A DNA stretch of 49,102 nucleotides from positions 1-49,102 of IMG/VR virus record IMGVR_UViG_3300025769_000197; one strand, written 5' to 3'. This document shows positions 3,104 to 31,182 of the stretch, one piece after another. The DNA comes from a virus. The notes beneath the pieces were generated by a model. It was not told where the DNA came from and searched no databases. It worked only from the letters and a program-made list of their open reading frames with translations. How positions within the stretch are numbered: the stretch's first letter is position 1; every line of letters begins with the position of its first letter. Made by a program: the position numbers and the translations under genes.

Positions 3104-4708
3104 TTATCTCCTTCCTGATGGTATAAAATCTATATAAAAACCATTTACAATATATGGTGTCTTTTTATCGTTTGTTGAAATTCTAAAAGAGTTACTATGT
3201 CCACTACCTTGAAGTGCTACCCTAACTAAAGGTTGTTCTCCAGCTCCAAAGACTGAAGAACCAAATGTAGCTGAACCAAACAATGAAGGTGCATCTACAG
3301 TTAAGTTATAATCTGGTGGTTGTGGAATACTCGTACTATCGTAATCATATCTAACTCTTAATGTTGGAGTTATATCTCCTTCTGGAGCTATTGACATTTT
3401 AACATAGTGTAAAGTTTTTAGAGTTCCTAAATCTCCATAGTCATAGTCTGGAGTTTGATAGATAGCATTTATATTAGAGCCATCAAAAGAATCTCCACTA
3501 TCATGAGTATAAACATAGCCGTTTGTATCACCATGATAATAAACTTCAATACCTTCGTTATCAAAGTTTGAATTTATTGAAGTTACTTCTAAACCTAATG
3601 TTTCTGACCATTCAAAACCATTTGGTCTTAATGTTCCTATAATACCTTTTTGTCCTATATTAGGCTGTCCATTATTTGTATAAAATAATCTGTATTGTGA
3701 CTTTTCTCTAATAACTAAACTATTAATTGTATAGTCATCAATTGTCCTAGCTAAACTAACTATCAAAGGCTGTATAGCTTTTGATACAGTTCCTAACTCT
3801 ACGTCACCAATCCTAGCTGTACCAGCAACTGTTCTGATACCATCCGGTGCTAAGAATACTAAGTCACCGCCAATCTCTTGAATACTATAACCACTTAAGC
3901 ATCCTACGTTTTCTGTGATAGGGTCTATACGTATATTAGAACTATCATTTATATTTACAAGTTTATGAATACTATTTTCTGCAAAAACTATTAAGTCTTC
4001 CCTAAATCCTCTAACACCTACAACTTGGTCTGATATAGTTACTGAACCAGCTCCACTTCCTGTAAAGTTATCAGGGTCATTATAAACACTATAATATATA
4101 GTACTTAAATTATTTTGAACTCCTGCAGCTATTAAATGATGGTCGTGTATAGCTACATACTTTACACTATTTGTTCCGTCTACTGCAATTTCTTTAGTAT
4201 AAAAAGTTCTAGTATTTAAATTACCAGTACCTTCCATACGGAAACTCCAAAGCTGATTAGCTCCATCTGCAATAATTATTTCACCATAATCAAAAGTAGC
4301 ACCTTCAAATAATACAAAAGAACACTGCCCTTGATTTGTTCTAGCTGTAGCAGTTTTACCTGTAAAGGTTGTGTAATCGTCTCCGTTTGTTGCGGATAGT
4401 TTATTTATCAGTAACCATGTAGCTCCATCGTTACTAAAATAAATATTAGTTCCTGCACAAGCTATTACACCATCTGCATACGGAAAAGTTCCTAAGATAG
4501 CTGTAATTCCACCTGTAGGTTGCGTAGCTGTTACTTCGCCAACTTTATACTTTGTATAACCATTAATACGTCTGTAGCCACCTTCTGTAGCTACTTCAAA
4601 GTTTTGTAATGTTTTTGCAACTCCGGGAGTTTTAAGTAAATCAATAGAGTTTACTGATTTTACTAAGCCTCCGCTACATGCAACGGTGTAAGGTTGTGAA
4701 CTTGCCAT
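3104..4708 (-). CDS. Tail/virion structural protein, possibly tail-hub or DNA-stabilisation-like
   Basis: This 534-aa protein lies between the fibre gene and a putative adaptor gene, at the usual place for tail-hub or needle components of podoviruses. The sequence is beta-rich with recurring segments such as GGITAILGTF, DLIVFAENSIH and GGDLVFLAPDG, suggesting repeated blades (propeller-like). There is no signal peptide and no catalytic motif. It starts 4 bases after the upstream gene ends and stops just before the fibre ribosome site. P22 gp10-like stabilisation proteins occupy a similar position and have similar length; that assignment is an inference from context. Confidence 0.6.
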   Translation of the reverse strand: MASSQPYTVACSGGLVKSVNSIDLLKTPGVAKTLQNFEVATEGGYRRINGYTKYKVGEVTATQPTGGITAILGTFPYADGVIACAGTNIYFSNDGATWLLINKLSATNGDDYTTFTGKTATARTNQGQCSFVLFEGATFDYGEIIIADGANQLWSFRMEGTGNLNTRTFYTKEIAVDGTNSVKYVAIHDHHLIAAGVQNNLSTIYYSVYNDPDNFTGSGAGSVTISDQVVGVRGFREDLIVFAENSIHKLVNINDSSNIRIDPITENVGCLSGYSIQEIGGDLVFLAPDGIRTVAGTARIGDVELGTVSKAIQPLIVSLARTIDDYTINSLVIREKSQYRLFYTNNGQPNIGQKGIIGTLRPNGFEWSETLGLEVTSINSNFDNEGIEVYYHGDTNGYVYTHDSGDSFDGSNINAIYQTPDYDYGDLGTLKTLHYVKMSIAPEGDITPTLRVRYDYDSTSIPQPPDYNLTVDAPSLFGSATFGSSVFGAGEQPLVRVALQGSGHSNSFRISTNDKKTPYIVNGFYIDFIPSGRR

Positions 4709-14419: not shown

Positions 14420-14425
14420 GGTAGT

Positions 14426-14454
14426 ATTATATAGTATCTTTTAACATTTGTCAA
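14426..14454 (-). promoter_or_regulatory. Leftward sigma70 promoter P(late)
   Basis: On the minus strand TTGACA (14454-14449) and TATAAT (14431-14426) are separated by exactly 17 bases, a full match to the bacterial housekeeping consensus. The predicted start is near 14419, the first base of the terS ATG, implying a leaderless or nearly leaderless transcript. Confidence 0.9.
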
Positions 14455-14492
14455 GCCCTTTAAAAGTATTTTAAGTTATTTGGGAAAAGTAC

Positions 14493-14521
14493 TTGACAAA
14501 ATTGAAAAGTATGTGTATAAT
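14493..14521 (+). promoter_or_regulatory. Rightward sigma70 promoter P(early)
   Basis: TTGACA (14493-14498) and TATAAT (14516-14521) with a 17-base spacer match the consensus exactly. It diverges from the leftward promoter, with 38 bases between the two -35 elements. The predicted start is about 14528. A strong hairpin terminator lies 145 nt downstream, so much of this transcription may stop early. Confidence 0.9.
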
Positions 14522-14527
14522 AAAGTT

Positions 14528-14672
14528 GAAAACGTCCCCCGGTTTAAATACATACATAAGCCCACCCAAGTATCATCATAATTTTTATATAATTATTCAT
14601 AAACCCCTATAACTTGTTATAACAAACTTAATAGTCTTTAATACAGACTAAACAAGAACTAGGGGTTTTTTT
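14528..14672 (+). ncRNA. Candidate ~145-nt small RNA or attenuated leader
   Basis: The interval is bounded by a perfect promoter and a strong intrinsic terminator and has no convincing reading frame. The 3' half folds as a three-tier hairpin: 14601-14609 with 14660-14668, CTTGTT (14613-14618) with AACAAG (14651-14656), and TAGTCT (14632-14637) with AGACTA (14645-14650). It may be a stand-alone regulatory RNA, an antitermination target, or a replication-priming transcript entering the DnaA-box region. Confidence 0.6.
14601..14672 (+). terminator. Intrinsic terminator with T7 tract
   Basis: The outer stem AAACCCCTA/TAGGGGTTT (14601-14609 with 14660-14668) runs into seven Ts (14666-14672). Two inner stems extend it. 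On the opposite strand the tail has only three Ts, so it points rightward. Confidence 0.8.
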
Positions 14673-14771
14673 ATGTCTAAAGGTTTATAAAGTTTGTGAA
14701 GTTTTATAGCTTTATAAAGCCCAACTGGTTAATACAACTTTTGGGTAGAAATGTAGATGATTTACATATAT

Positions 14772-14808
14772 ACCCACCCACCCCCCATGTGCATCCTGCC
14801 CGCCCCAC
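14772..14808. other. C-rich tract; G-rich on the minus strand
   Basis: In an otherwise very AT-rich region this stretch is mostly C on the plus strand. The minus strand has GGGG, GGG, GGGGGG, GGG and GGG runs separated by short spacers, enough to form a G-quadruplex. It lies just before the DnaA-box cluster and may help origin opening or act as a replication or transcription block. Confidence 0.55.
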
Positions 14809-14840
14809 TTGTAAAACTTTATACACAGGATATCAACAGT

Positions 14841-14893
14841 TTATCCACTTTTAAAGTGTGTCATGTATAACCTGTGGATAACTCTGTGGATAA
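14841..14893. other. DnaA-box cluster, candidate replication origin
   Basis: Two exact inverted DnaA boxes (TGTGGATAA, 14873-14881 and 14885-14893, 12 bases apart) follow a one-mismatch box in the other orientation (TTATCCACT, 14841-14849). TTATCCACA is the strongest bacterial DnaA site. Together with AT-rich flanks, direct repeats and the C-rich tract this marks a likely origin that recruits the host initiator. Confidence 0.65.
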
Positions 14894-14940
14894 CTTTACA
14901 AGCTTTTAAAGTGTCATACCGCCCTTAAAAAGTGTCATAC
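14847..14940 (+). repeat. Three copies of a TTAAARGTGTCAT-like repeat
   Basis: Similar units occur at 14849-14864 (with GTGTGTCAT), 14904-14918 and 14925-14940 (with AGTGTCATAC), next to the DnaA boxes. A related pair, ACTTTACAAGCTT, occurs at about 14894 and 14949. Direct repeats of this kind act as iterons or regulator sites in other replicons. Confidence 0.55.
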
Positions 14941-15012
14941 TTTTAAAACTTTACAAGCTTATCAAGTCTAGTTAATGCCCCGTTGAAAGTTTATAACGTG
15001 TGTAAAGTTTAT

Positions 15013-15176
15013 TGTATAAATTTTATACAGCACTTTTAAAGCTGTATAAATTTTGTACAACTTCAAAAACTGTACAATTTTTGTACAACTATCTAAACTT
15101 CATAAACCTTATATTACATTATAACCACCTCTTATAATACACTTCTCGTATTATGTAGCTGTGTAAATTTTGTACA
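15013..15176. repeat. Four copies of a 17-bp TGTA..TACA palindrome
   Basis: Copies: 15013-15029 (a perfect palindrome around a central T), 15043-15059, 15071-15087 and 15160-15176. The shared form is TGTRYAAATTTTRTACA with small variations. The first three are 28-30 bases apart, about three helical turns, so they lie on the same DNA face. The last lies just upstream of the first rightward gene. This looks like an operator array for a dimeric repressor or activator, or an iteron set. Confidence 0.75.
15134..15154. promoter_or_regulatory. Perfect 7-bp inverted repeat near the first early gene
   Basis: ATAATAC (15134-15140) and GTATTAT (15148-15154) flank a 7-base loop, and a TATAAT hexamer (15133-15138) overlaps the left arm. 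No good -35 is seen at the right distance. It may be an operator between the third and fourth TGTA palindromes. Confidence 0.4.
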
Positions 15177-15220
15177 GCACCACCTCTGAAACATGCATTC
15201 TTACAACATAAAAAAAAGTG

Positions 15221-15249
15221 TTGCATTCTCTTTTTACATGTTGCATAAA
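15221..15249 (+). promoter_or_regulatory. Weak candidate promoter for the first rightward gene
   Basis: TTGCAT (15221-15226) and CATAAA (15244-15249) are 17 bases apart and sit 35 bases before the ATG at 15284. Both hexamers deviate from consensus, which would suit a promoter needing an activator; the adjacent TGTA palindrome at 15160-15176 could bind one. TGTTGCAT itself occurs twice, 20 bases apart. Confidence 0.35.
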
Positions 15250-15283
15250 ATAAGCAACTTAATTTTAAAAGGAGTTAATAAAC

Positions 15284-17448: not shown

Positions 17449-17449
17449 T

Positions 17450-17620
17450 ATGAAAAGATTTGAAATAGATGCAGAACTTTTAACACTTAATAAATTTGTA
17501 ATAATTGCAAAGACTGAAAAAGAAGCTGAACAATATGTTAAAGATTTAAATTTTAATCATCAACATATAAGAGAGCAAAGCTTAAACGATATAACTATAA
17601 TTTCAATTAACGAGGTATAA
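17450..17620 (+). CDS. Small early protein, 56 aa
   Basis: ATG 17450 follows the previous stop after one base, and the stop is followed by the next ATG after one base. It encodes MKRFEIDAELLTLNKFVIIAKT..., a beta-strand then helix (KEAEQYVKDLN) then strand layout, typical of small alpha/beta phage proteins. Confidence 0.6.
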   Translation: MKRFEIDAELLTLNKFVIIAKTEKEAEQYVKDLNFNHQHIREQSLNDITIISINEV

Positions 17621-17621
17621 G

Positions 17622-17786
17622 ATGAAAAGATACGAGAGTATATACGAGTATAAGATACTCAATTACAAGGACTATATAAAGCTTAGACGGGTTCGCAAGT
17701 GGCATAATACATGGATAGTTGTACATCCTAACGACATAGAAAAAGATAAGCCCGTAGAGGTAAGGAGGTTGAGACACAATGTTTGA
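17622..17786 (+). CDS. Small basic early protein, 54 aa
   Basis: The peptide MKRYESIYEYKILNYKDYIK... is rich in Tyr, Lys and Arg (LRRVRKWHNTWIVVHP), beta-rich, and ends VRRLRHNV. A basic surface suggests nucleic-acid or ribosome contact, but I do not recognise it. The end overlaps the next ATG by 8 bases. Confidence 0.6.
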   Translation: MKRYESIYEYKILNYKDYIKLRRVRKWHNTWIVVHPNDIEKDKPVEVRRLRHNV

Positions 17787-17868
17787 CATGGATATTAAAA
17801 TTGTGATAGTTTATATAATAACAGGATTAATAGTAGCTTATTATTTACACAGGAGGGACACAAGATGA
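17779..17868 (+). CDS. Single-TM micropeptide, 29 aa
   Basis: The peptide is one membrane segment (KIVIVYIITGLIVAYYL) followed by a basic end (HRRDTR). It overlaps both neighbours: its ATG sits 8 bases inside the previous gene and its stop overlaps the next start. Such tiny membrane peptides in phage early regions may alter the host membrane or inhibit a host membrane protein. Confidence 0.5.
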   Translation: MFDMDIKIVIVYIITGLIVAYYLHRRDTR

Positions 17869-18029
17869 GCAATACAACAAATGAAAACTACATACAAAAA
17901 GTGTACGAGTATTTATACGAGAAACATTATCAAGAGTTGAGTCCATTTTCTGATGATGTTGAATGGATAGAGAACGAGGCTGAGAGATTAGCTGAGATAG
18001 ACTTAGATAACTTTGAAATGGAGGGATAA
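17865..18029 (+). CDS. Small acidic early protein, 54 aa
   Basis: The acidic helical peptide begins MSNTTNENYIQKVYEYLYEK, with AERLAEIDLDNFE near the end. ATG 17865 overlaps the stop of the micropeptide gene (ATGA), and GGAGGG lies upstream. Possible host-protein binder or nucleic-acid mimic; unknown. Confidence 0.55.
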   Translation: MSNTTNENYIQKVYEYLYEKHYQELSPFSDDVEWIENEAERLAEIDLDNFEMEG

Positions 18030-18033
18030 AGAT

Positions 18034-20193: not shown

Positions 20194-20423
20194 AAACTAA
20201 AATATTAAAAAACAAAGTAACTATTGAAATGAGTAAAGATGAATATAAAGAGATGATGTTAAAACTTAATTCACTTGATAGTATGATAACTAATACTATT
20301 GAAATGCAAGATGTTTATCTATCAGACATTGGTAAACTTCAAAACTTAAGATGGAGTTTGCAAGAGATGTTAGATGCTACATGGGACACTGAAAACTATA
20401 GCTACATTTCAAGGAGAGATTAA
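20190..20423 (+). CDS. Small helical early protein, 77 aa
   Basis: It begins MKTKILKNKVTIEMSKDEYKEM, with the ATG overlapping the previous stop (ATGA). The rest is helical with an amphipathic pattern (LKLNSLDSMITNTIEMQDVY). Perhaps a coiled-coil dimer. Function unknown. Confidence 0.6.
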   Translation: MKTKILKNKVTIEMSKDEYKEMMLKLNSLDSMITNTIEMQDVYLSDIGKLQNLRWSLQEMLDATWDTENYSYISRRD

Positions 20424-20427
20424 TAAT

Positions 20428-20778
20428 ATGAAAATGTTTTTAATAAAATTACTAACAGGTATAGCAGTTGTATTAACTATGTACTTAGCAATATTAATAC
20501 TGAACGAAGACACTATGGAAAATGCTGATGATATACTAACCTTAAATAGGAAGGTGGAATCTTTAGAGGAAACTTTACAAGCTGTTAAACAACAACAAGA
20601 GTATCTACAAATTATGCAGAAGGGTTTGAGAGAATCTATAAACAATAAAACTATTGAAGTAGATAAAAAGGTAGAGGAAGCTGTTGACAATAAGTTTAAA
20701 GAGCAATCAGCTACCGGTGGACTAGGCGTACTTACAAATGAACAAGCATTAGCTACTGAGGAAGCTGTAGTAGAATGA
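20428..20778 (+). CDS. Membrane-anchored coiled-coil protein, 116 aa
   Basis: I chose ATG 20428, which follows AAGGAGAGATTAAT. An N-terminal membrane segment (FLIKLLTGIAVVLTMYLAIL, residues about 4-23) is followed by a long coiled coil (NRKVESLEETLQAVKQQQ to about residue 85) and a flexible tail. The design resembles an inner-membrane spanin (Rz-type) or a membrane regulator, but its place far from other lysis genes makes the spanin idea weak. Confidence 0.6.
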   Translation: MKMFLIKLLTGIAVVLTMYLAILILNEDTMENADDILTLNRKVESLEETLQAVKQQQEYLQIMQKGLRESINNKTIEVDKKVEEAVDNKFKEQSATGGLGVLTNEQALATEEAVVE

Positions 20779-20858
20779 GTCACGATGACTTAGTAGACTT
20801 TGCAATACTTTTTATGTTAGTATGTGCATTAGTTATTAATCGCTTAATAGGATGGTAA
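20775..20858 (+). CDS. Single-TM micropeptide, 27 aa
   Basis: The peptide MSHDDLVDFAILFMLVCALV... is a short acidic N-terminus, one membrane span and RLIGW. It overlaps the end of the coiled-coil membrane gene by 4 bases and the next start by one base, so a partner of the 116-aa membrane protein is possible. Confidence 0.5.
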   Translation: MSHDDLVDFAILFMLVCALVINRLIGW

Positions 20859-21040
20859 TGAAAGATAACGTAGTGCTAACACCAATGAGCAAAGATGAGT
20901 TTAGATGTTGGGAAAGTTATATTGTATATTACAATTATGAAAACCCTACAGACCAAATAGCTTATGAGGTTAGTTGGAAAGATGATATTTATAGTGTGAC
21001 TTTATTAGACTTAAAGGTTGACAAGGAGGTTAAAGCCTAA
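20858..21040 (+). CDS. Small early protein, 60 aa
   Basis: The start at ATG 20858 (MKDNVVLTPMSKDEFRCWES) overlaps the preceding stop. The sequence is beta-rich with several Trp and Tyr (VYYNYENPTDQIAYEVSWKD). Its 3' end contains the -35 element of the promoter that reads into the structured RNA. Confidence 0.55.
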   Translation: MKDNVVLTPMSKDEFRCWESYIVYYNYENPTDQIAYEVSWKDDIYSVTLLDLKVDKEVKA

Positions 21041-21046
21041 TACAAT
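21018..21046 (+). promoter_or_regulatory. Sigma70 promoter for the structured RNA
   Basis: TTGACA (21018-21023), a 17-base spacer and TACAAT (21041-21046, 5 of 6 matches) overlap the end of the preceding gene. The predicted start at about 21053 is the left edge of a long non-coding, highly structured region. Confidence 0.75.
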
Positions 21047-21052
21047 AGTCAC

Positions 21053-21520
21053 TTATTTAAGGCGTGTCGATAGGTGTAGCCCTCAACTAACCTTCCTTAA
21101 GCCTAAAGACACCTACTAGTTTCTGGTCTAGTGCCACTAAAACCAGACTAAGTTTTAAGATTTAGTGTAAGATGAGCTTACTGTAAAATCCTGAAGTCTG
21201 AGCCATTATAAATCCTAGATTAAATTCGGGGATATGGAGTGACGAAGTGGGTCGTAAGATGAAGGTTGGAATGAGTGCTAGTACCCATCGTCCAACACAC
21301 TAATAGTCTTCCTAACTATCGCTACTAATAGTTAGATGACTTTAAAAGTGCATGTAGCTAGTCTGATTTTCCCACATTGCGTGGAGGTTTGAACAGACTA
21401 TAAAAAACAAAGCCACAATTTGCGAGTGTTGACAGGCACTATAAAAACCTATAGTTCAAGTTGCTGTTGGAGGAGTTGGTAGTTACTTCGGGACTGAAAA
21501 ACTACCCACTTAATTTTTAA
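21053..21520 (+). ncRNA. Candidate large structured RNA, ~470 nt
   Basis: There is no convincing reading frame from 21041 to 21531, in a genome where genes otherwise touch or overlap. Many strong helices are visible: 21071-21077/21109-21115, 21122-21127/21142-21147, 21159-21163/21186-21190 with 21167-21171/21177-21181, 21265-21270/21291-21296, 21312-21319/21328-21335 (8 bp, with an outer 4-bp stem), 21359-21365/21394-21400, 21438-21443/21450-21455 and 21478-21484/21500-21506. A possible pseudoknot pairs 21056-21063 with 21101-21107. It is more GC-rich than its neighbours and has its own promoter. I cannot match it to tmRNA, RNase P RNA, 6S RNA or a group I core. It may be a new or rare family. 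Confidence 0.75.
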
Positions 21521-21531
21521 CCGGAGGGCTT

Positions 21532-21831
21532 ATGAAATTATCAGAATGGGTGAGCAAGTTTGACTTACCTTTCATGTTTGAATTTGAATCCAAAATATTA
21601 GACAAGACTATTCAATGGTCATACACAGATGCATGTCAAGAGAAACAGTTCTGGGAAACGTGGATACCTAAGAAGTCTGATATAAAAATCAGAAGTAAAA
21701 TACCTAAAGGCAAACTGCAACAAGTAAAGAACGAGTTATGGGAAGACTTGGATGAAGACCTACAGGTATTGCGAGATAGACTGAATGAAAAAAGAAGATT
21801 AAAAAGACTTGCACAAAAGCAAGAAGTATGA
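21532..21831 (+). CDS. Small protein between the structured RNA and the SSB-like gene, 99 aa
   Basis: It starts after CCGGAGGGCTT. The first half has Trp/Phe-rich strands (KLSEWVSKFDLPFMFEFESK, TIQWSYTDACQEKQFWETWI), and the second half is a basic helix (LRDRLNEKRRLKRLAQKQ). It heads the replication gene group. Its mixture of aromatic strands and a basic helix could suit DNA binding; family unknown. Confidence 0.65.
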   Translation: MKLSEWVSKFDLPFMFEFESKILDKTIQWSYTDACQEKQFWETWIPKKSDIKIRSKIPKGKLQQVKNELWEDLDEDLQVLRDRLNEKRRLKRLAQKQEV

Positions 21832-27904: not shown

Positions 27905-28160
27905 ATTTAAAGAAGATGAAATATTAAGAGAGATAAGAATGTATGTTGATAGAACATACGACCAACATTATGCTAATGGTAAGTACCAAGCTACTGATAT
28001 AATATTAGATACAGGACATGGAGAAGGATTTTGTATTGGAAACATTATGAAGTACGCTATGAGATATGGAAAGAAACATGGTAATAATCCAGATGACTTA
28101 CGTAAGATAATACACTATGCTATAATAGCTTTATATTTACAGGACAAAGATAATGATTGA
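27894..28160 (+). CDS. DUF3310-like protein, ~88 aa
   Basis: Homology-like sequence begins near VKYKFKEDEILREIRMYVDR, so I prefer the GTG at 27894; a longer frame from 27825 lies inside the previous gene. The helical core GEGFCIGNIMKYAMRYGKKHG and DDLRKIIHYAIIALYL match the pattern of DUF3310 (sometimes called SaV-like) phage proteins, with GN-x-x-KY and DL-x-K. These commonly flank nucleotide metabolism genes, as here beside nrdA. Function not established. Confidence 0.7.
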   Translation: MKYKFKEDEILREIRMYVDRTYDQHYANGKYQATDIILDTGHGEGFCIGNIMKYAMRYGKKHGNNPDDLRKIIHYAIIALYLQDKDND

Positions 28161-30048
28161 AGATAAGATAGGACAGAAGCCTTACCTAGGCATTACAATA
28201 GATTATGATAAAGAAAAAACATTTGATAAGTTTAGTTTAGATACACTCAAAGATAGATATTTTTGGGAAGGAGAAACACATGCCCAAGAAGCATTCGCAA
28301 GAGCCTCAGTCTTCGGAGCAACCTACAAAGGTGAGACAGATTTTGAATTGGCTCAAAGACTTTATAACTACAGTTCCTCTCGTTGGTTCATGTTCAGCAC
28401 TCCTATACTTAGTAACGGGGGAACAACTCGTGGGCTTCCTATCAGTTGTTTTCTTAACTATGTTCCTGATAGTAGGGGTGGTTTATCTTCTCACTATGAC
28501 GAGAATATTTGGTTGGCAAGTTCGGGTGGAGGCATTGGTGGATATTGGGGAGATATTAGGAGTAATGGTATATCTACTACTCATGGCTCTCGTTCTACTG
28601 GTTCAATTCCTTTCATGCATGTAGTTGATTCTCAGATGTTAGCTTTTAACCAAGGCACTACAAGACGTGGTAGTTATGCGGCTTATATGGATATAAGTCA
28701 TCCTGAGATTGAAGAGTTTATTAACATGAGAAAAGAATCAGGTGGAGATATAAACAGAAAGAATCTTAATCTTCATAACGGTGTAAATATTACAGATGCT
28801 TTTCTTGAAGCAGTACAGAAGGATGAAGATTGGAGATTGATAGACCCTAAGACTAACGAAGCTGTTAAGACTATTAACGCTAGAGATTTATGGTGGCAGA
28901 TAATAAATGCTAGAGCAGAAACAGGTGAGCCTTACATGGTGAACATTGATACTTGTAATAAACATTTACCTAAAGCACAAAAAGATTTAGGTTTAAAGAT
29001 AAGACAAAGTAACTTATGCTCAGAGATTACTCTACCAACAGATGAAGAGAGAACAGCAGTATGTTGCTTATCTTCTGTAAACTTAGAACACTTTGATGAC
29101 TGGTCAAAAGATGACATGTTCATTGAAGATTTAATAACCATGCTTGACAATGTTTTACAGCACTACATTGACAATGCAATAGACACAACACAGTTAGGAG
29201 AATACAGTGCAAATTTTAAACGCTTTCAAAAATATGTTAAAGAAGGTAAGGAAGGCTTTACCAAGAGTGCCTACTCAGCGTATCGAGAAAGGAGTCTCGG
29301 TCTCGGTGCTATGGGCTTCCATGCTTATCTTCAATCTCGTAACATCCCTTTCGAAGGGATATACGCTAGTGGTTTCAACTATAAAGCATTCTTGTATATC
29401 AATACTAGAGCAAATGAAGCGACTAAAGAACTGGCTGTTAGAAGAGGAGAGGCTCCAGACATTCATGGTACAGGTAAAAGAAACGCTAACCTATTGGCTA
29501 TTGCTCCTAACGCTAGTAGTGGGATTATATGTAGTGGTACTTCCCCTTCTATTGAGCCTTTCCGTGCTAACTGCTATACTCACAAAACTTTGTCAGGGTC
29601 TTACCAAGTTAAGAACAAGTATCTCGAAAAAGTTCTCAAGTCTAAGGGGCTTAAAGGCAAAGAGTTAGATGCAGTATGGAAAGATATATCAGGTAGTGAT
29701 GGTTCAGTTCAACACTTAGATATATTAACAGATGAAGAAAAAGAAATATTTAAGACTGCTAATGAAATAAATCAAATTTGGATTGTAGAACATGCACATC
29801 AACGACAAGAGTTTGTATGTCAAGCACAGTCTGTTAATCTGTTCTTCACTTTACCAAAGGCAACAGAGCCTCAAGAAGTACACGATGAGTACATGCAATA
29901 TGTTAATGATGTACATTGGTATGGTATGAACAAACTTAAATCGCTTTATTACTTCCGTTCTAATGCAGCCAGAACTGTAGAGAATGTTAATACTAAAGTA
30001 CAACGAATAAATTTAGAAGATACAGAATGTATCGCATGTGAGGGATAG
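28153..30048 (+). CDS. nrdA: Ribonucleotide reductase large subunit, class I, 631 aa
   Basis: Makes deoxynucleotides from ribonucleotide diphosphates for phage DNA. Catalytic-site features: SCFLNYVPD early (first redox Cys), NLCSEI (active-site N-x-C-x-E), a later VCCLSSVNLEHF, and the C-terminal CIAC pair that shuttles electrons. It is about 130 residues shorter than typical class Ia enzymes and lacks the N-terminal ATP-cone, so dATP feedback control is probably absent. It forms an operon with nrdB and a small zinc-ribbon gene between them. Confidence 0.93.
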   Translation: MIEDKIGQKPYLGITIDYDKEKTFDKFSLDTLKDRYFWEGETHAQEAFARASVFGATYKGETDFELAQRLYNYSSSRWFMFSTPILSNGGTTRGLPISCFLNYVPDSRGGLSSHYDENIWLASSGGGIGGYWGDIRSNGISTTHGSRSTGSIPFMHVVDSQMLAFNQGTTRRGSYAAYMDISHPEIEEFINMRKESGGDINRKNLNLHNGVNITDAFLEAVQKDEDWRLIDPKTNEAVKTINARDLWWQIINARAETGEPYMVNIDTCNKHLPKAQKDLGLKIRQSNLCSEITLPTDEERTAVCCLSSVNLEHFDDWSKDDMFIEDLITMLDNVLQHYIDNAIDTTQLGEYSANFKRFQKYVKEGKEGFTKSAYSAYRERSLGLGAMGFHAYLQSRNIPFEGIYASGFNYKAFLYINTRANEATKELAVRRGEAPDIHGTGKRNANLLAIAPNASSGIICSGTSPSIEPFRANCYTHKTLSGSYQVKNKYLEKVLKSKGLKGKELDAVWKDISGSDGSVQHLDILTDEEKEIFKTANEINQIWIVEHAHQRQEFVCQAQSVNLFFTLPKATEPQEVHDEYMQYVNDVHWYGMNKLKSLYYFRSNAARTVENVNTKVQRINLEDTECIACEG

Positions 30049-30050
30049 TC

Positions 30051-30194
30051 ATGGATTGTTGGCACTGTGGAACACAATTAATATGGGGCGGAGACCATGA
30101 CATAGAAGATGAAAATGAAGAGTATATAATGGAGACAAACTTACATTGCCCTAAATGTAACTCCGAAGTTATAGTCTATTTACCAAAGGAATAA
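30051..30194 (+). CDS. Small zinc-ribbon protein between nrdA and nrdB, 47 aa
   Basis: The ATG at 30051 follows GAGGGATAG. The peptide MDCWHCGTQLIWGGDHD..., then HCPKCNSEV has CxxC...CxxC, an obvious zinc ribbon. Similar mini-proteins with the WGGDHD phrase recur in phage genomes. It is too short for many gene finders. Its location suggests a partner or regulator in nucleotide metabolism, but the function is unknown. Confidence 0.75.
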   Translation: MDCWHCGTQLIWGGDHDIEDENEEYIMETNLHCPKCNSEVIVYLPKE

Positions 30195-30198
30195 TAAT

Positions 30199-31182
30199 AT
30201 GAGCTTACTAACAACTAGAGATTACTACAAACCATTTGAATATCCATGGATGTTTGATTACTATGTATTACAGAATCAGATGCATTGGATGCCAGAGTCT
30301 GTAGCACTACATACAGATGTAAAAGATTGGCAAGAACTTACACCGGTTGAAAAGAATTTACTTACACAAATATTCAGATTGTTTACTCAGTCTGATGTTG
30401 ATGTGGGTGCCGGATATGTAGATAAGTATATGCCTATCTTTAAAAAACCTGAATCAAGAATGATGATGGGTTCTTTTGCAAACATGGAATCAATTCATCA
30501 ACATGCTTATTCTTTATTGCTTGACACAGTTGGAATGCCTGAGATAGAGTACAAAGCTTTTGCAGAGTACGAAGAGATGTCAGACAAGCATGACTATGTT
30601 GGTAACTTTAAACCGCTTAAGTCTGATAAAAGAACTATTGCAAAAACTTTAGCAGTTTACTCAGCTTTTACAGAAGGCTTACAGTTGTTCAGTAGCTTTG
30701 CTATTCTTTTAAACTTTCCAAGATTTGGTAAGATGAAAGGCATGGGACAGATAGTTACTTACTCTATCCGTGATGAGTCTATGCACGTTGAAGCTATGAC
30801 TAAATTGTTTAGAGAGTTTATACAAGAGAACATAGAGATATGGACAGATGATTTTAAGAAAGAACTCTATGACATATGCAGACATATGGTAGAGTTAGAA
30901 GATAAGTTTTTGGATTTAGTTTTTGATATGGGAGATATACAAGGACTAACTAAAAAAGATATGTATGCTTACAACAGATACATAGCAGATAGAAGGTTGC
31001 TTCAGTTAGGATTAAAAACTAACTTTGACCAAAGAGAGAATCCTCTTGGTTGGATTGATGAAGTAACCGGAGTAGAACACCAGAACTTTTTTGAAGGTAG
31101 GGCTACTACCTATATGAAAGCAGGGCTTCGAGGTAGACAGGACAATATTAAATTTACAAACCTAGAGGAACCTAATGATTAA
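30199..31182 (+). CDS. nrdB: Ribonucleotide reductase small subunit
   Basis: The 327-aa radical-forming subunit shows the ferritin-like iron-ligand pattern: acidic residues in TQSDVDVGAGY, E-x-x-H in NMESIHQHAYS, a glutamate in FTEGLQLFSSFA, and E-x-x-H in RDESMHVEAM. The helical bundle and length agree with class I NrdB. It provides the tyrosyl radical for NrdA, and forms the reductase genes' operon with it. Confidence 0.93.
   Translation: MSLLTTRDYYKPFEYPWMFDYYVLQNQMHWMPESVALHTDVKDWQELTPVEKNLLTQIFRLFTQSDVDVGAGYVDKYMPIFKKPESRMMMGSFANMESIHQHAYSLLLDTVGMPEIEYKAFAEYEEMSDKHDYVGNFKPLKSDKRTIAKTLAVYSAFTEGLQLFSSFAILLNFPRFGKMKGMGQIVTYSIRDESMHVEAMTKLFREFIQENIEIWTDDFKKELYDICRHMVELEDKFLDLVFDMGDIQGLTKKDMYAYNRYIADRRLLQLGLKTNFDQRENPLGWIDEVTGVEHQNFFEGRATTYMKAGLRGRQDNIKFTNLEEPND

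Follow-up and report, generated by a model that had tools for sequence, protein, structure and literature searches.

The noncoding stretch at 21041-21531 of the window, by which we mean the whole 49,102-base virus record analyzed here, is on the evidence of its sequence and its relatives a transcribed operon leader in a marine podovirus, lying ahead of a small gene, and the RNA modules it carries fold independently, interchange, and recombine between phages and genomic sites. A preliminary description had presented this region as one large structured noncoding RNA with its own promoter, a possible pseudoknot, and no known family. All of this holds except that it is not a single RNA, and the comparison drawn there with the ornate GOLLD and ROOL types gives way to a mosaic of at least 7 separately evolving modules in an mRNA leader. 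The function we infer for these modules is offered tentatively: the best explanation, which we hold at less than even confidence, is that they are interchangeable RNAs acting in trans as decoys or inhibitors of host RNA-binding or defense factors.

The window has the gene set of a podovirus, with head, portal, terminase, and tail genes on the minus strand and replication genes on the plus strand. The closest isolate primases, at about 47% identity, belong to the Pelagibacter phages HTVC103P and HTVC104P, and a Pelagibacterales host seems plausible for this phage. Just 5′ of the replication genes, 20374-20778 has a weak match to an Rz-like spanin (PHROG 739, E = 9e-4), and genes for the large and small subunits of ribonucleotide reductase are found at 28153-31182. 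Gene blocks of opposite orientation are separated by 864 nt without ORFs (14420-15283), and this stretch, which carries DnaA-box-like sequences (TTATCCAC at 14841, TGTGGATAA at 14873 and 14885), is a candidate for a replication origin and for a region of divergent promoters. No additional arrays were seen on reading this stretch and 17449-18033, and a model search finds F3, the largest module described below, once in the window.

The ORFs on either side of the leader (20852-21040 and 21532-21831) are 491 nt apart, and no ORF touching 21041-21531 exceeds 33 aa, as the preliminary description had held in seeing no convincing reading frame. The near-perfect sigma70 promoter it placed before the stretch is also there: TTGACA-17-TACAAT occupies 21018-21046 on the plus strand (−35 TTGACA at 21018-21023, −10 TACAAT at 21041-21046) with 11 of 12 consensus matches, and transcription would be expected to start at about 21053. 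Homologs retrieved via the neighboring primase and SSB genes place a leader at the same position in about 60 distinct contigs, with the promoter readable in nearly all of them. Both hexamers were found in 74 of 92 leaders, the misses that were inspected reflecting removal of the −35 box by a 60-nt clip of the sequences, and the spacing is 17 nt in every one of these 74 despite 28 different spacer sequences.

Plain folding energy was rejected as proof of structure. Minimum-energy folding gives z = −1.44 for the plus strand, where 11 of 100 shuffles fold equally well and the result is not above chance, and z = −2.03 for the minus strand. The eight strong helices proposed earlier are thus unconvincing from folding alone and needed comparative proof; covariation, described below, does bear out structure in the region.

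The modules (M1, M2, F3, M4, and M5-M10) were defined by reading leaders and by profile searches, and those of the window follow the order M1-M2-F3(M4)-M10-M6-M9 on the plus strand. M1 (21061-21112) is a 5′ hairpin with a large conserved loop (UAGCCCUC at 21077-21084), its core occurring in 110 viral contig stretches and its stem varying among relatives, as in the pair ACUAAAAGGU/ACCUUUUAGU read by eye in one contig (L139). It is followed by M2 (21115-21147), an H-type pseudoknot formed by ACUAG/CUAGU and UCUGGU/ACCAGA, and by F3 (21162-21303; model R1, E = 4.1e-9), a pseudoknotted RNA of four helices, P1 to P4, in which P1 pairs 21162-21168 with 21297-21303 and the P3 arm is capped by the 22-nt sub-module M4 (21210-21231, AAATCCTAGATTAAATTCGGGG). 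M10 (21305-21358) is a hairpin, CUAACUAU/AUAGUUAG, paired by eye from 2 distinct sequences only, and its loop GCUAC can, again by eye, pair with GUAGC downstream. M6 (21360-21423), whose motif occurs in 55 viral contig stretches, combines a stem AGUCUG/CAGACU, an inner hairpin, and a pseudoknot GGUUUG/CAAAGCC, and M9 (21424-21507) comprises two candidate H-type pseudoknots (AGUG/CACU with AGG/CCU, and GGAGU/ACUUC with GGUAG/CUACC), paired by eye and not counted.

Dissection of 33 non-redundant F3 examples gives the following layout: after P1 comes a junction whose last letters are GAG, then P2, a bulge that closes with UAAAA, the helices P3 and P4, and a P4 loop of conserved sequence (AUGAG...ACC). 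In the F3 pseudoknot, the 3 nt before GAG pair with the 3 nt after the conserved loop motif; 22 of 27 positions pair across 9 distinct combinations, including GAU/AUC, AAC/GUU, GAC/GUC, and UCC/GGA, and none of 20,000 shuffles is as good. With the covariation of the M2 pseudoknot, this substantiates what had been put forward as a possible pseudoknot. The F3 pair score is 0.629 against 0.250 for shuffled sequences in alignment A1, which was built with the variable P3 arm trimmed off and undercounts P1 and P4 because MAFFT misaligns F3 helices between subtypes, and 0.545 against 0.199 in A7, a model-fitted alignment of 69 distinct sequences that leans to the structure. Corresponding scores are 0.307 against 0.110 for M2 (A3), 0.174 against 0.082 for M6 (A4), and, with all cells paired, 0.362 against 0.189 for M7, a module absent from the window. 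In each case none of 500 shuffles scores as high as the real alignment, a comparison that kinship among sequences can inflate, so that the firmer evidence comes from changes on both sides of helices and from sliding the partner strand, a control that abolishes or much weakens the signal for every covariation-tested module. G-U cells number 50 and A-C cells 4 in these structures, as expected for folding of the sense RNA. The comparison of homologs suggested in the preliminary description therefore supports the predicted structures of F3, M2, M6, and M7, pseudoknot helices included.

These structures are combined differently from phage to phage. In Blast comparisons with relatives, the region splits into blocks whose presence or absence is independent, and 102 leaders from uncultivated marine phage contigs fall into 42 architectures; module order is largely constant, though M7 or M6, for example, can precede F3, while leader length varies widely and modules are freely lost. 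Exchange extends inside F3, where the P3 arm has 40 different contents on similar cores and identical arms also sit on divergent cores, and the 22 nt of M4 are unchanged amid 26 distinct flanking contexts in viral contigs. Most module copies lie in 5′ leaders directly before a gene, and all copies tested share the strand of neighboring coding (99:0, 45:0, 43:0, and 21:0). Modules also occupy many unrelated intergenic sites besides the leader: the F3 loop motif is found in 113 viral contig stretches 5′ of many different genes, F3, M4, and M6 precede many different downstream genes with no constant gene or gene class, and M6 is additionally placed 3′ of genes in contigs of 109 kb (L363) and 65 kb (L370). 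F3 and M4 are never within ORFs and were rejected as introns. In one contig (L341), two intrinsic terminators enclose F3, a further element, and a promoter-like sequence that was read by eye and not listed by the consensus scan; they enclose no gene. The array is kept in L068 without the downstream gene, and in L143 and L243 though a new promoter follows it. From the swapping, the loss, the different neighbors, and the gene-less unit, it can be argued that the modules act on their own.

Two of these contigs have peculiarities of their own. L341 has 23 intrinsic terminators against 3.6 by chance, an expression style unlike that of the window phage, yet it has F3. In L143, the array and the usual downstream gene are separated, at about 4250-4700, by an additional gene that has a promoter of its own and the same ribosome-binding site, GGAGGGCTA.

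Rfam covariance models applied to the window and its relatives gave no family match, with none for GOLLD, ROOL, or OLE at E <= 1 to 3 and none to tmRNA, RNase P, 6S, group I introns, riboswitches, or ToxI, in agreement with the initial judgment that tmRNA, RNase P, 6S, and group I do not fit; tRNA and tmRNA are likewise absent from the window. No convincing blastn match was obtained for the region or single modules among 50,697 phage records, or for the region among plasmids. Weak Kolga and Aegir matches fall within annotated genes or next to them and are not called by the F3 model, which has no significant match in nine marine phage records including HTVC103P, HTVC104P, HTVC115P, and HTVC008M. 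In an exact-pattern scan of 84,980 bacterial and archaeal genomes, which diverged copies would escape, the 21-nt core of M4 is absent and the F3 loop has a single match, exact in the loop and located in an Anaerolineales MAG, which is partial at 24 nt and was dismissed as chance.

If each module is in itself a complete ligand for some nuclease or RNA-binding protein of the host, such as a defense factor that targets RNA, then a series made early by the phage from its sigma70 promoter could supply decoys or inhibitors acting in trans, and the repertoire of each phage would be reshuffled as hosts change, like protein anti-defense genes. The mRNA leader would then be a convenient route to transcription, not the purpose. 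We lean toward this reading because the modules are independent in their architectures and swapped arms, because they are indifferent to position (leaders, intergenic sites, 3′ sides, and the gene-less L341 unit), because arrays persist in L068, L143, and L243, and because the total orientation bias and the excess of G-U over A-C point to a sense-strand RNA. It also draws on the resemblance of the H-type pseudoknot series to type III antitoxins: ToxI units are H-type pseudoknots, and phage TE evades the ToxIN RNase via a pseudo-ToxI (PMC5086642). ToxI, CptI, and pseudo-ToxI are likewise transcribed series of this kind, the last a precedent for a phage-borne RNA decoy (PMC5086642).

The resemblance goes only so far. 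By covariation, M2 and M7 fit the ~35-40 nt H-type pseudoknot units of type III antitoxin RNA, but the units here mostly differ from one another, unlike those of ToxI, which repeat a single sequence, and the only repeat in the window is degenerate, with two copies (70%). No ToxN-like endoribonuclease gene is adjacent, the ORF at 21532-21831 being without a match in Pfam, in PADLOC, or by fold; array and gene have no terminator between them, and Rfam gives no match to ToxI. No partner protein, toxin, or defense gene has been identified, and the 5′-leader placement and M1 loop complementarity (below) fit roles in cis, all of which weighs against trans decoys. A broader proposal, still more tentative, is that marine phages share a freely recombining pool of pseudoknot modules, themselves subject to arm swapping, from which phage-specific arrays would be assembled to act in trans against host RNA-targeting factors; such arrays might then be a combinatorial RNA counterpart of protein anti-defense islands.

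At a guess, protection of the mRNA ranks close behind trans decoys, although taken by itself we think it somewhat unlikely. Pseudoknots would here armor the transcript in cis, blocking or slowing host ribonucleases and stabilizing the carrier mRNA, so that any good block would serve. Modules keep to the transcribed strand without exception and hardly ever fall within genes, occurring in 5′ leaders and also 3′ of genes (L363 and L370), and their dense pseudoknotted folds, with the identity of the downstream gene immaterial, are what such armor calls for. However, the L341 unit has no gene to protect, and loop conservation as strict as that of M4 across its 26 contexts exceeds the need of a generic block.

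A role in translation would center on the downstream gene. This small plus-strand gene (21532-21831; ribosome-binding site and start codon at 21523-21534) encodes 99 aa with a basic C-terminus and reads as part of the same transcript as the array; between the two there is no terminator or other mark of an RNA end. The protein has no match in Pfam, PHROG, or PADLOC, its predicted structure (AF2 pLDDT 76) has no PDB fold match below E 1, and a toxin was rejected for want of a family or fold match. Its N-termini are swapped among relatives (MKLSEWVSKF... vs MNLYFKSTTL...) ahead of the conserved basic C-terminus, a parallel to the leader mosaic. At this gene's ribosome-binding site, GAGGGCU complements the M1 loop sequence AGCCCUC, and in the main clade loop and site may base-pair, adding local translational control. 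That the modules as a whole form a switch, whether sensor or timing device, with the M1 loop pairing across the array with this site, is in our estimation improbable. The complementarity, GUAGCCCUC / GAGGGUUAU, extends over 7-9 bp in about 68 leaders, against mostly 5-7 bp between the M1 loop and the next gene's site, though a CCCUC loop is partly complementary to any purine-rich site. Loop and site have both changed in L252 and, as read from the sequence, still match over 8 nt. Against a switch, modules are also found where M1 is absent and ahead of a wide range of genes, L068 has an array with no gene, and a promoter intervenes between array and gene in L143 and L243.

Far less probable is a single large ornate RNA assembling into a particle. 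GOLLD and ROOL are large pseudoknotted phage-encoded RNAs whose function is not yet known (PMC12286853), and the region is like them in size, pseudoknotted structure, and phage origin, and has a promoter. Each of those RNAs, however, has one conserved fold and often neighbors tRNA islands, whereas here small modules combine freely with no fixed core in all arrays, length varies widely, modules are freely lost, no Rfam family matches, and the window and the loci of 7 relatives contain 0 tRNAs. Least credible of all is a DNA-level element, such as a mobile inverted repeat or a hairpin used in replication or packaging: although the modules are multi-site, mobile, and rich in hairpins, the total strand bias, the excess of G-U far above A-C, the pseudoknots, and the invariant promoter before the main array speak against it.

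Other leader RNAs offer partial parallels. The T4 gene 32 leader has one pseudoknot, which regulates its own gene; both there and here a leader pseudoknot lies near a single-strand-binding-protein gene, but here there are many modules and genes, and the SSB gene comes with a promoter-like sequence of its own. In tandem riboswitches, too, a leader carries a succession of folded RNA domains; in the present arrays, however, no constant downstream gene class and no expression platform were seen. We found no description of such a module system in the open-access literature and, to our knowledge, no RNA system unites free module shuffling, arm swapping within modules, and position independence; this combination we would call categorically new, whereas single modules alone would be new members of the general kind of structured phage RNA. 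If our reading is true, several structured RNA families are added at once, RNA domains prove to be shuffled between marine bacterial viruses in the way that protein domains are, and RNA-based counter-defense in marine phages becomes accessible to experiment. Short test objects for a search for host partners are M2 (33 nt), M7 (~27 nt), and M4 (22 nt).

A cultured phage offers one further observation. In isolate HTVC115P (L267 about 3290-3332, MN698247.1), a gap of about 400 nt 5′ of the SSB gene contains an apparent H-type pseudoknot, GUUGG/CCAAC with GAGUAG/CUACUC, which is possibly a cultured relative of M9.
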